A stretch of 64,000 nucleotides of DNA from Ruegeria lacuscaerulensis ITI-1157 (lineage in GTDB: Bacteria; Pseudomonadota; Alphaproteobacteria; Rhodobacterales; Rhodobacteraceae), in NCBI GenBank assembly GCA_000161775.1, contig GG704596.1:238425-302424 (forward strand), read 5' to 3'. Position numbers and translations under genes: made by a program. Position 1 is the stretch's first letter, and each line of letters opens with the position of its first letter. The notes below the pieces were generated by a model. That model searched no databases. It had not been told where the DNA came from and saw nothing but the letters and a program-made list of their open reading frames with translations. Of this stretch, positions 44,546 through 48,151 are shown piece after piece.

Positions 44546-47500
44546 TCAGCGCGAGACGTACCCCGCAATCACCTGCATCAACTTGAACGCCGTCGCCGCG
44601 TCGTTTTCGACCACGGCCAGAAACTCCTCTTCGCCGATGCGCAGGCAGGTCAGATCGGTTTCGGCCACCATGCTCAGCGCTCGGGGTTCCTTGCGAATCA
44701 GGCCCAACTCGCCGACCAGGGTGCCCGGCCCGACGCGGCTCACCAATTGGTCGGGGCCGCCCTTTTGCGGCAGGTACAGGCCCGCCTCGCCCTCGATGAT
44801 CATATAGGCCCCGTCTGTGGGTTGATCGTCCTTCAGGAACACGACCTCGCCAGCGCTGGCGCGATACCATTGCGCGCCAAAGGCCAGCAGGCGCAGCTGG
44901 CGCCGGTCCAACCCGGAGAACAACGGCGTCTGTTCAAGCGCACGCAGCTTGCGGACCAGATCCGCCGAAGCCGCGCCCTCGCCCTCGGATTCGGATGCGA
45001 TTTGGTCTGACACGACCCGACCTTGCCGGATTTCAACATACATGTCGAATACGGCAGGGGTCTGGAACTGATCGTTCAGATAGATGATCGTCGTGTCGGG
45101 CAGCAGCGCACGCAGGTTCCGAAACACTGCGACCTGCGTTTTCATGCCATAGCTTGCCAATGCGTTTTCCAGGATCAGAATATCTGGCTTCTTGATCGTG
45201 GCGCGGGTGAAGGCAAGCGGCTCGGACAGGGCCGCCGACAGGTTCTGCCCGCCCAGAGTGACCGGGATGTCATAGATCAGTTCGATCACCAACGGGCGCG
45301 CGCCGTTCTCGGCCAACACATCTGCGACCAGCTTGCGAACCTCGTCCGAGCGCGCACCGCCGATCTGACTGACCTTGCCGAACAGCGCGTTCTCCATCAC
45401 CGACAGCCCCGGTGCAAACGCCGCGGGGTCCAGCCGGACGAACACATCGTCCAGCCGCTCCATCAATTTATCCGCGTGGCTGTGGCGCAGTTCCAGAATG
45501 CGGCTCTTCAATTCATCGGAAAAGGCCGGGCCGATCTGCTCGGCCGAGATCACGAACGGCACCGCCAGCAAGCTGGCCAATTGCTCGTCATCCAGCCCGG
45601 CGGCTCCGGTTTCGCGCGTGCGCTCGACCAGTTCCACCGCCGCCTCATAGGTTGCGGCCTCGAGCCCCAGTTTCCGGAACAGCGGGTGGTCGGTTCCATC
45701 CAACCCGAAGATCTGCCGCAGCATTTCGATCACGTCGCGTGTCAACGCCACCAGCGTTTCGTCCAGCCCCAATTCCCTCAACTGCTGCAGAAATACGGTC
45801 TGCTGTGCCAGCAACTGCTGGGTGACCGGCAAGCGCGGCACCGCAAACAGAAGGTTTTCGGCCACCGGCAGCGCCGAATTGTACGTGGCGCGATCAAACA
45901 GCAGCGCCTGCTGCTCCAGCCCGGCCTTGCGAATGGCGTCCTGCACCACCGGCCGCAACTCGACCAGCCGGACGGCGAGTTCGGGATGCAGATCCGGATC
46001 AAAAACCTGTTCGGCCCCGCGTTGGAACAGGGTCGGCCCCGAACCCATGCCCTCGATCAGCTTCAGCCACCAGTCCCGCAGGTCCTGGTTGGTTTCAAAC
46101 CCGGCCAGCGACGGATCGAGCCATTCGGCGTCGAGCGGATCGGGGCTGTTGCCGGCGCGCAGCGTTTCCTCAAAGTCGGGATCGTCGGGCGGCGGGGTCA
46201 ACGGACGCTGCCGCAACGGCATCATCACGTTGTCGCCAATGGTCCCCTGAAACATCACCGGGCGCGAGGTCGCATGTCCGATCCGAGCAGCGATCACCGC
46301 CTGGTGCAGGCCGGACAGGTCCCGCCCCGCGACCTCGACCTTGCCCGATCCGGGCAGGATCTCGCGCGTCAGCAGATCGGCAAGCGCGCGGCGGTCTTCC
46401 TCGCTGGGGGCTGCGACGCCGATGGTCTGGCCAGCGCCGAAGGTCAGGTTCAGATCGTCCAGCACCTGGTTCCCGTCCAGATCGCGCACCGTCACCTGAT
46501 CCAGCACGATATCGCCATCCAGGCGCGGTATGTCGCCCGGCTCGCCTTCGAACAGTTTTTCGTCGATCATGCCCTGAGGGGCAAAGCGTTCGATCACCAC
46601 GTTCCACCGCAGCGACATGTCCTGGGTCTGATTGTAGTAGGTCAGCAGTTCCTTCCAGGGCGAGCTCAGATCCTTGTACGCGGCCAGTGCGGCCACCAGC
46701 GCCCCCAGCGAAATCGACCCTTGCAGCACCAGCAGACCGCCCACCAGGTAGAACATGAACGGCGTCAGTTGGGTGATGAAGTTGTTGATGAACTTCATGA
46801 AGAATTTCTTCTGGTAGATCTCGAACCGGATTCCGAACAACCGGCCCAGCTGCGCCGAGATCAACGCCAGTCGATAGCGCCATCCGCCGTTCTGGCGCAG
46901 GGTGGCTGCGCCGGCCGCGTTTTCGCCGATCTGAGCGGCCAGAACGCGCACCTCTTGAATGCGGCGCTTGTTCAGAAGGTTGATCTGCCGTTGCAGCCGC
47001 GGGATCAGCCAGGCCTGCACCGGGATCAGCGCCACCGCGGCCAGCCCGAACCAGACACTTTGCAGAAACAGGAACGACAGGATCGTCAGCATCTGCCCCG
47101 CCTGCAACACCGGCTGACTGATCGCATCGCCCATCAACCCGCCCATCGGCTCGCTTTCGGCGGTGATCATCGAGACCAGCTCGCCCTGGCTGACCCGTTC
47201 GAAATAGGGCTGCGGGAACCGCAGCGCCCGCCGGATCAGCTGATAACGGAACCGGCGCAGCATCCGCTCGCTCAGGACACCTTTCATTGTGTTGATGCGC
47301 ATTTTCATCAAGCCGTGGGCCAGAACGGCGGCCAGAAACGCAAAACACAGAATGACCAGGAATGTCGTTTGCGCCAGGGAATAGCCCCAGACCTCGACGA
47401 CCTCGCTCGAGGCGCCGATCGCATCGTTGATGATGCGCTTGGGCAGTTCCAGAGTCAGATACAGCAGTGGAAAAAGGGTCGCCGTCACGGCCAACAGGAT

Positions 47501-47611
47501 CAGCTGATCGCGCTTGGAGTATTTCCAGATGAACCCGAAAATCGAACGTTCTATGGACTCTGCCCCTGCTGATGGACCGAAATTTGAAACTGGCAACGTT
47601 CGAATGAACAA
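44546..47611 (-). CDS. ABC-like exporter protein with degenerate, interrupted nucleotide-binding domain and C-terminal CNBD
   Basis: At 1021 residues this is a type-IV exporter-like membrane domain (about 25-345, six helices), a nucleotide-binding-like domain split in two (about 365-470 and 780-870) and a cyclic-nucleotide-binding-like domain (about 897-1018; GELGLIRKEPRALS matches the phosphate cassette). The NBD is not canonical: the Walker A position reads GVAAPSEEDRRA with no GKS/T; the signature is LSAALSE; Walker B ends ILILEN in place of DE; the H-loop position has YLND. A Q-loop (MFQGTIGDN) remains. Some 310 residues are inserted between Q-loop and signature. It may bind but is unlikely to hydrolyse ATP normally. 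The first possible start is TTG at 47611 without a good ribosome site; TTG at 47596 is an alternative. Confidence 0.85.
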   Translation of the reverse strand: MFIRTLPVSNFGPSAGAESIERSIFGFIWKYSKRDQLILLAVTATLFPLLYLTLELPKRIINDAIGASSEVVEVWGYSLAQTTFLVILCFAFLAAVLAHGLMKMRINTMKGVLSERMLRRFRYQLIRRALRFPQPYFERVSQGELVSMITAESEPMGGLMGDAISQPVLQAGQMLTILSFLFLQSVWFGLAAVALIPVQAWLIPRLQRQINLLNKRRIQEVRVLAAQIGENAAGAATLRQNGGWRYRLALISAQLGRLFGIRFEIYQKKFFMKFINNFITQLTPFMFYLVGGLLVLQGSISLGALVAALAAYKDLSSPWKELLTYYNQTQDMSLRWNVVIERFAPQGMIDEKLFEGEPGDIPRLDGDIVLDQVTVRDLDGNQVLDDLNLTFGAGQTIGVAAPSEEDRRALADLLTREILPGSGKVEVAGRDLSGLHQAVIAARIGHATSRPVMFQGTIGDNVMMPLRQRPLTPPPDDPDFEETLRAGNSPDPLDAEWLDPSLAGFETNQDLRDWWLKLIEGMGSGPTLFQRGAEQVFDPDLHPELAVRLVELRPVVQDAIRKAGLEQQALLFDRATYNSALPVAENLLFAVPRLPVTQQLLAQQTVFLQQLRELGLDETLVALTRDVIEMLRQIFGLDGTDHPLFRKLGLEAATYEAAVELVERTRETGAAGLDDEQLASLLAVPFVISAEQIGPAFSDELKSRILELRHSHADKLMERLDDVFVRLDPAAFAPGLSVMENALFGKVSQIGGARSDEVRKLVADVLAENGARPLVIELIYDIPVTLGGQNLSAALSEPLAFTRATIKKPDILILENALASYGMKTQVAVFRNLRALLPDTTIIYLNDQFQTPAVFDMYVEIRQGRVVSDQIASESEGEGAASADLVRKLRALEQTPLFSGLDRRQLRLLAFGAQWYRASAGEVVFLKDDQPTDGAYMIIEGEAGLYLPQKGGPDQLVSRVGPGTLVGELGLIRKEPRALSMVAETDLTCLRIGEEEFLAVVENDAATAFKLMQVIAGYVSR

Positions 47612-47758
47612 AGCAGGCCGAAGTTACTGCATTCGCGTTCGGCGACGCAAATGGATTCAGGGGTTCGAAAACATATCCACCTTGTGTGAACAAGTTCATT
47701 TGCGAACACGCGAATTTGCACCTAGTCTTTGGTGGGGATGATATCGGGAGGGATATAT

Positions 47759-48151
47759 TTGCCTGCCACACTAGGCACAGTGCTGCTTTTGGTTGCGTTG
47801 CTACAAGCCAAGCACATGTTCGCCGACTTTTTCCTCCAGACGCCCAAGATGTTGTCGGGGCGGGGGGTCTATCTGCATGGCGGACGCGCCCAACATGCTT
47901 TGGTGCATGTCGTGGGCTCGATCATTGTTTTTGCTTTTTTTGGCGCGCCTCTTGCATTCATCCTGATCATCGCAGCGCTGGAATGGATCGTCCATTTCAA
48001 CATCGATTTCGTCAAAGCCAGCTATTCCGACAAAAAGCAGCTTAAACCCGATCAGGCGGCCTATTGGCGCGCGGCGGGGCTGGATCAGTTTCTACACAAC
48101 CTGACCTATGTCGGCATGGCCTGGGCCTGGGTCGAGTTCGCGCCCGGATGA
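47759..48151 (+). CDS. DUF3307 family membrane protein
   Basis: A 130-residue protein with about three transmembrane segments; it contains the KHMFADFFLQTPKM motif and conserved His residues (RAQHALVHVVGS; WIVHFNIDFVKASY) typical of DUF3307. Function is unknown. I choose a TTG start at 47759 since GGGAGG lies eight bases before it and the resulting N-terminus matches the usual length; an ATG at 47738 is the alternative. It diverges from the ABC-like gene across 147 bp and its stop touches the lrp gene end. Confidence 0.78.
   Translation: MPATLGTVLLLVALLQAKHMFADFFLQTPKMLSGRGVYLHGGRAQHALVHVVGSIIVFAFFGAPLAFILIIAALEWIVHFNIDFVKASYSDKKQLKPDQAAYWRAAGLDQFLHNLTYVGMAWAWVEFAPG

Follow-up and report, generated by a model that had tools for sequence, protein, structure and literature searches.

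An ABC-exporter-type protein with eroded nucleotide-binding motifs and a fused cyclic-nucleotide-binding domain in Ruegeria lacuscaerulensis

Gene and domain layout

The open reading frame P0001 was analysed on a stretch of 64,000 nucleotides from Ruegeria lacuscaerulensis ITI-1157 (GCA_000161775.1, contig GG704596.1, positions 238,425 to 302,424; the whole stretch is called the window), where it encodes a protein built like an exporter of the ATP-binding cassette (ABC) type. The frame lies on the minus strand at 44546-47611 and holds 1021 codons counted from a TTG at 47611, to which residue numbers refer; the probable true coding region is 44546-47554. An ABC-exporter transmembrane domain, by identity the best-conserved part, covers residues 20-345 (46577-47554, minus strand). 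It was recognized by Pfam ABC_membrane (PF00664; residues 58-309, 55.8 bits, cut-off 28), and its structure model matches PCAT1 and TM287/288, so that the exporter-type membrane domain described in the first-pass annotation was recovered. The nucleotide-binding domain (NBD) follows in two parts on the same strand, an N-terminal one (residues 362-462; 46226-46528) with an altered Walker A motif and Ser449 at the Q-loop, and a C-terminal motif stretch (residues 791-848; 45068-45241) with LSAALSE, LILEN and YLND, all altered in the alignment. Between them lies an expanded helical segment without a Pfam match (residues 465-786; 45254-46219, minus strand). In the structure model the NBD matches the fold of the ComA NBD despite a score for Pfam ABC_tran (PF00005) of 16.1 bits, below the cut-off of 25. 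The predicted closing cyclic-nucleotide-binding domain (CNBD) was found by Pfam cNMP_binding (PF00027) at residues 919-1004 (44600-44857, minus strand) with 60.7 bits against a cut-off of 27.5.

Loss of the nucleotide-binding motifs

Motif positions were compared in one alignment of 108 family sequences, which were grouped by identity to the window protein and not by clade: group A (at least 56.5%; n = 38, window protein included), group B (43.5-56.5%; n = 17) and group C (below that; n = 53). In the window protein the motif positions are occupied by GVAAPSEEDRRA (398), LSAALSE (791), LILEN (812) and YLND (844), and 0/7 canonical features were present. The glycines and the Lys-Ser/Thr of Walker A are replaced by A401, D406, R407 and R408, the signature reads LSAAL, the Asp-Glu of Walker B is E815-N816, and the His column of the H-loop holds D847. 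Thus Walker A, signature, Walker B and H-loop are non-canonical, as had been reported; the Q-loop said to remain was not recovered, the residue in the Gln column being Ser449 (SRPVMF).

Across the alignment, the Walker A Gly-Lys was present in 0/38 A, 0/17 B and 23/53 C sequences, the Walker A Ser/Thr in 0/38, 7/17 and 6/53, the Q-loop Gln in 0/38, 0/17 and 6/53, the signature S..Q in 0/38, 0/17 and 18/53, the catalytic Glu in 0/38, 0/17 and 21/53, and the H-loop His in 0/38, 0/17 and 12/53. The Walker B Asp was found in 29/38 A, 15/17 B and 13/53 C sequences, with Glu815 in its place in the window protein. Loss of the hydrolysis motifs therefore extends beyond one gene, as none of the 55 A and B sequences carries the Walker A Gly-Lys, Q-loop Gln, S..Q, catalytic Glu or His. 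Homologues with normal motifs, named earlier as the sign of a local artefact, were encountered in part only: the best four C sequences hold five of the seven features, 16/53 hold none, and all seven together occur in 0/108. Since the wider C relatives reach 5/7 at most and 16 have lost every feature, erosion appears to be family-wide and no local artefact. Judged by the alignment, motif loss is a trait of the whole family and is complete in the lineage of the window protein.

What replaced the motifs was itself conserved, with Arg at position 407 in 38/38 A and 15/17 B sequences and Asp or Glu before it in 38/38 and 16/17, and the loss in A and B is therefore not free drift. The conserved pair, together with the frequent Walker B Asp (although not in the window protein itself), could be taken as the mark of a re-purposed site that uses another nucleotide in place of Mg-ATP or works by altered chemistry. 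This is considered very improbable, given the established chemistry by which an acidic P-loop residue repels phosphate, and given the loss of signature, catalytic Glu and His alike.

An ABC nucleotide site is composite, one chain contributing its Walker motifs and the partner chain its signature. A and B chains supply neither half in canonical form, and therefore no complete site would be expected with any partner; ATP hydrolysis by the window protein is, on its sequence, unlikely. A protein that is still ATP-powered, by pairing with a partner half-transporter so that one site works as in TM287/288, TmrAB or TAP, would fit the co-occurrence of the two groups: among 149 genomes, 22 held both, 4 A only, 2 B-like only and 121 neither (sets compiled by hand with the tree as guide, uncorrected for shared descent), as expected of heterodimer partners. 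This distribution fits a joint complex, and asymmetric exporters, in which one of the sites is degenerate, are common (PMC7756269, available excerpt). With Walker A Gly-Lys and signature canonical in 0/55 A and B sequences, and no complete site in an A-B or any other half-transporter pairing, the ATP-powered form was nonetheless rated improbable.

Expanded segment of the nucleotide-binding domain

From the Q-loop column at residue 449 to the signature at 791, about 340 residues were counted. The same interval spans about 56 in an ordinary exporter encoded by this genome, so that the extra NBD length is nearer 280. An expansion had been noted before, and this held, with the figure of about 310 residues replaced by these values. 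Two repeat units were delimited within the segment, U2 (residues 536-620; 45752-46006, minus strand) and U3 (residues 692-785; 45257-45538, minus strand), which were aligned by hhalign with a probability of 98.9% and which include Asn586 and Asn741, respectively, each present in 108/108 family sequences. The part at about 692-786 continues into the normal signature helix. The extra segment is, by this comparison, derived partly from duplication inside the NBD, and a reading of it as simply a foreign domain had to be dropped.

Cyclic-nucleotide-binding domain

The phosphate-binding cassette of the window CNBD reads VGELGLIRKEPRAL (also given as VGELGLIRKEPRALSM). GE...PR is the cassette motif of the CNBDs of PKA and CRP, and the window domain carries it, with Glu968 and Arg977 present in 38/38 group A sequences. 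The nearest solved chains include regulatory subunits of PKA, which show GELALI..PRA at the cassette position, and other cyclic nucleotide binders. In group B the Arg was found in 17/17 sequences, while the Glu is replaced by Asp in 15/17. The genome itself holds ten class III cyclase matches above cut-off.

In relatives the domain is mostly a neighbour. Among 22 C-type loci with flanks, a separate downstream CNBD gene of about 150-210 residues was present in 16, and the ABC frame was long enough to include a CNBD in three (L198, L211, L214). Loci L116 and L117 also have a separate CNBD gene, and two annotated rhizobial records likewise carry an ABC-CNBD pair; the domain is fused in Azospirillum lipoferum and in groups A and B. 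The same domain being a neighbouring gene in some genomes and fused in others is fair evidence that ABC protein and CNBD cooperate.

Distribution of constraint

In group A, mean pairwise identity was highest in the membrane domain (80%), followed by the CNBD (75%), the N-terminal and C-terminal NBD parts (66% and 61%) and the insert (55%). In group B it was 72% for the membrane domain, 52% for the CNBD, 55% and 58% for the NBD parts and 45% for the insert. Identity of the membrane domain exceeded that of the NBD core in 703/703 A, 136/136 B and 1213/1378 C pairs, whereas for an ordinary exporter of the same genome (25 sequences) this was so in only 34/300 pairs. Conservation is thus higher in the membrane domain than in the NBD, opposite to what an ordinary exporter shows. 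Of 53 invariant columns, 47 lie within residues 29-343, in a count for which CNBD columns could not qualify, as three rows lack the domain. The ratio of nonsynonymous to synonymous substitution (omega) was computed for only four pairs, each of the window gene with one orthologue, and was 0.03-0.24 in each part where it was defined; synonymous divergence was about 1 or above in three of the pairs. Taken over the sequences compared, the strongest constraint falls on the membrane domain, with the CNBD second.

Start codon

The probable start codon is an ATA at codon 20 of the frame (47552-47554, minus strand), with a Shine-Dalgarno-like AGGGG 9-13 bases upstream. At this column, 97 distinct group A loci (L009-L088 and, in part, L089-L112; a second alignment was used, in which L112 falls in A) read ATA in 72, ATC in 23 and ATG in 2. 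Group B has ATG in 17/17, and the 32 readable group C rows have ATG (25), TTG (3), CTC (2), CTG (1) and GTG (1), with neither ATA nor ATC among them; 21/53 C rows without Trp at the anchor column were left out. Of the 95 group A loci without ATG at the start column, 60 have no ATG, GTG or TTG between this column and the upstream in-frame stop. The other 35, the window gene with its TTG among them, have one of these codons upstream in frame, 31 within 25 codons, and as an alternative start exists there, the assignment in these loci rests on comparison. The binomial figure computed with the group A counts takes no account of common ancestry.

Over the 97 loci, pairwise identity from -57 to -19 was flat at 0.29 for all three codon positions, and the GG at -11/-10 was conserved (0.92 and 0.96). 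Directly after the ATA or ATC, codon periodicity set in (0.83, 0.94, 0.54). ATA makes up 3.3% of the Ile codons inside group A genes. The group A line appears from these sequences to start with ATA or ATC in 95/97 loci. Translation probably does not begin at the TTG of 47611, because periodicity sets in 19 codons downstream of it; with a start at ATA the protein would probably have about 1002 residues. Of the intact frame of 1021 codons claimed at first, the openness stands and the start at TTG probably does not. Gene callers miss such a start, the TM1040 orthologue being annotated from about 17 codons after it.

Decay or a local artefact, that is a pseudogene or a sequencing error in this genome, could be argued from the lost motifs and from a likely start other than ATG, GTG or TTG. 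Its probability is practically negligible: full-length open orthologues are present in many genera, omega stays at the low values given above, and both the replacement residues and the Shine-Dalgarno sequence with its ATA or ATC are conserved. The earlier argument against decay is upheld by these omega values and by motif loss common to orthologous and paralogous lines.

Family distribution and sampling

For the homologue search, the best 80 of 416 relatives were retained; thinning of these and further loci at 80% identity left 58 representatives, excluding L062 (split frame) and L061 and L099 (contig edge). Positives of an NBD-segment profile were sampled at 55 loci (L138-L192); among those from L142 onwards the profile matched 51 frames, of which the 49 with at least 700 residues were used (L148 and L150 dropped). 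The genome itself has a full-length paralogue of 52% identity on its second contig. Matches at E 1e-30 were obtained in 34/149 genomes of the same-family sample, and the NBD-segment profile matched in 131/385 genomes of the class and in 31/398 genomes of the phylum, all 31 being the own genome, the same family or the same class. The family was found here only in Alphaproteobacteria, with Ruegeria, Phaeobacter, Leisingera, Sulfitobacter, Azospirillum, Sinorhizobium and Rhizobium among the named matches. The tree, obtained by a quick method with support from the Shimodaira-Hasegawa-like approximate likelihood ratio test (SH-aLRT) only, sets C apart from the other two groups (support 98) and gives A and B as old paralogues inside the window genome's family; L112 and L126, counted as B, stand on its A side.

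Two records deviate. L071 (JAHVJD010000004.1), labelled Nocardioides marinus, holds a roseobacter-type gene of 69% identity and is probably a mislabelled or contaminated record. In L062, from a metagenome-assembled genome, the orthologue is split into frames of 543 and 463 residues by a frameshift or an assembly error.

Membrane-domain-only relatives

A relative of 318 residues that consists of the membrane domain only (L003) was located in the same genome at C1:2157422-2158342, next to what looks like an elongation factor P gene; its counterpart in a second genome of the genus shares 77% identity with it, and those in three other genera 65-72%. A second NBD-free type occurs on roseobacter plasmids, adjoining plastocyanin/azurin genes, and in one of two records read its neighbours also include cytochrome c genes that belong to a copper oxidase cluster. 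Plasmid records matching this type or family members numbered 105, with at least 80% coverage in 83. The stand-alone relatives L131, L132, L234 and L235 have an N-terminal extension; two of them lie on Sulfitobacter and Phaeobacter plasmids, and a TolC/copper oxidase/azurin cluster surrounds genes of this type on the plasmids read.

A search with a single ordinary NBD as query found none near the NBD-free genes (L131 and L132 included) in six stretches of 16-19 kb; its sole match, in a seventh stretch, was the group B paralogue. In a membrane-domain tree, NBD-free and full-length proteins were joined apart from three ordinary exporters (support 97), with the aberrant C rows L190 and L192 outside. 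The joint clade is tentative, because the three outgroup exporters sit on very long branches.

Gene neighbourhoods

Neighbour clusters were taken from a simple gene finder, with some small clusters being wrong-strand frames, and were named from own reading of the sequences and from the annotations of relatives' records. In the 22 C-type loci, the ABC-CNBD pair is mostly divergent to glycosyltransferase-like genes (cluster B in 20, cluster C in 17), and a histidine-phosphatase-like and a polysaccharide-deacetylase-like gene occur in 9/22 each. On pSymB of S. meliloti, an adenylate/guanylate cyclase gene lies in the same stretch as the pair; in L218 (3787-8094), DUF3095 and cyclase genes about 12-16 kb away are a possible ligand source. 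Group B genes are followed by a CPBP/CAAX-protease-like gene in 10/14 loci, and for the group B gene (L216, L118-L129, L137, L219) one annotated record shows an 11-base overlap with a CAAX-type membrane protease gene.

Group A genes have a divergent DUF3307 gene, which encodes a small membrane protein, as a neighbour in 24/25 loci (window 47729-48151), and an ArsR-type regulator gene in 13/25. The constancy of DUF3307, a family of unknown function, would suit a pure regulatory scaffold, in which a cyclic-nucleotide-responsive membrane receptor holds or regulates another membrane protein and moves no substrate, as the sulfonylurea receptor regulates its potassium channel. The lost hydrolysis motifs and the NBD-free membrane-domain relatives in unrelated settings, such as the copper oxidase/cytochrome c cluster, point the same way. 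Its partner protein is hypothetical, however, and the 47 invariant columns in residues 29-343 also fit a retained substrate path; the scaffold was accordingly kept as a possible reading of lesser weight.

Interpretation

The preferred interpretation, rated somewhat probable, is that the window protein derives from an exporter, has ceased to depend on ATP hydrolysis of its own and is probably governed through its CNBD. By structure model and alignment, the NBD fold is retained while the residues for ATP binding and hydrolysis are replaced by a conserved pattern, with Asp/Glu-Arg at the Walker A Gly-Lys; by the motif test the protein falls outside the ATP-driven class, from which it nevertheless descends. 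The family ancestor, as suggested by the relatives, may have been an exporter with a separate CNBD subunit beside genes for cell-surface glycans, and in the Rhodobacterales lines the widespread motif loss would have become complete and the CNBD fused. Two window-type chains, or one with a group B paralogue, would assemble as the usual exporter dimer. A cyclic nucleotide at the C-terminal CNBD would rearrange the NBDs, which might serve as a mechanical relay only and shift the state of the membrane domain. That domain may pass a substrate downhill, for example a glycolipid, or may only signal to a partner; because it is the most constrained part, there is a slight lean to a retained substrate path.

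Several observations weigh against this interpretation. The Walker B Asp is retained in the majority of A and B sequences (29/38 and 15/17). Conservation of the membrane domain could reflect the binding of a partner instead of transport, and the group A neighbours, DUF3307 and the ArsR-type regulator, do not point to glycans. Given the replacement of Glu by Asp in 15/17 group B sequences, ligand binding may differ or be lost there, and the gene finder showed no CNBD gene in three of the 22 C-type loci (L196, L200, L205). The C sequences L181, L182 and L184 have a C-terminal extension of CNBD length and retain the Walker A GKS and the Walker B Asp-Glu, whereas 16/53 C sequences hold none of the seven features, so that fusion alone did not accompany motif loss; as far as these sequences indicate, the two are not tied together. 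The structure models are of single chains, in which neither the dimer nor the position of the insert relative to the membrane domain is seen.

Translation from ATA, which belongs to a codon class discriminated against by initiation factor 3 (IF3), is probably weak or conditional. An extended version of the preferred interpretation, in which the exporter became a cyclic-nucleotide-gated, ATP-independent conduit with a dead but folded NBD, expanded through internal duplication, as relay, the CNBD as switch and a conserved AUA/AUC start that lets IF3 limit dosage relative to the ATG-started paralogue as its partner, is doubtful as a whole.

Comparison with known systems

ABC exporters such as PCAT1, TM287/288, TmrAB and TAP (PF00664 with PF00005) share the overall fold of the window protein. 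They differ from it in that the window protein has no complete nucleotide site in any pairing, and from its family in the added approximately 280 residues in the helical subdomain of the NBD, the C-terminal CNBD and a membrane domain more conserved than the NBD. SUR1/SUR2 and CFTR are exporter-type ABC proteins that gate or form channels and do not pump; these bind ATP, and at least one of their nucleotide sites still works. Unlike the window protein they have no cyclic-nucleotide domain, and they are linked to it by fold only, SUR2B appearing among the structure matches listed for the model. Asymmetric exporters keep one active site, as described in the available excerpt of PMC7756269, whereas in the window protein neither site can be canonical; degenerate motifs can, according to the same excerpt, persist in evolution with a structural or sensor role.

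The rhizobial pairs Q1M65_09435 and Q1M65_09440 (S. meliloti R14) and U8C40_35165 and U8C40_35160 (S. medicae) each contain a full-length homologue of about 30% identity. The CNBD is an adjoining separate gene, annotated Crp/Fnr, where the window protein has it fused, and PF00005 scores 39.6 bits in the S. medicae homologue, above the cut-off and unlike the window protein. These pairs lie beside glycosyltransferase, polysaccharide deacetylase and cyclase genes, and a rhizobial relative was found near an ABC importer set, a glycosyltransferase and purine-use genes. S. meliloti MsbA2 (locus tag SMb21191) was considered as a possible match to the rhizobial relative. It has its own upstream glycosyltransferase genes, as stated in the available part of PMC12239276, and was compared with that relative by gene setting only.

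Odd start codons under IF3 limit have been described for infC (ATT in E. coli, ATC in Streptomyces) and sigR (GTC) in the portion available of PMC5472188. Group A is like these in starting outside ATG, GTG and TTG, and differs in that ATA dominates (72/97) in an orthologue line of membrane proteins, for which control by IF3 would be by analogy only. If confirmed, the ATA/ATC start would add a conserved case to the few known odd start codons, and one that misleads gene callers.

Set beside these systems, the family forms a natural series that runs from NBDs holding at most five of the seven features through folded motif-less NBDs to membrane domains without an NBD, in which the role of an exporter can be asked once ATP hydrolysis is gone. 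The CNBD, mostly a separate neighbouring gene in the relatives and fused here, links cyclic-nucleotide signalling to the exporter scaffold, and the window protein may show a route from a pump to a signal-controlled membrane device.

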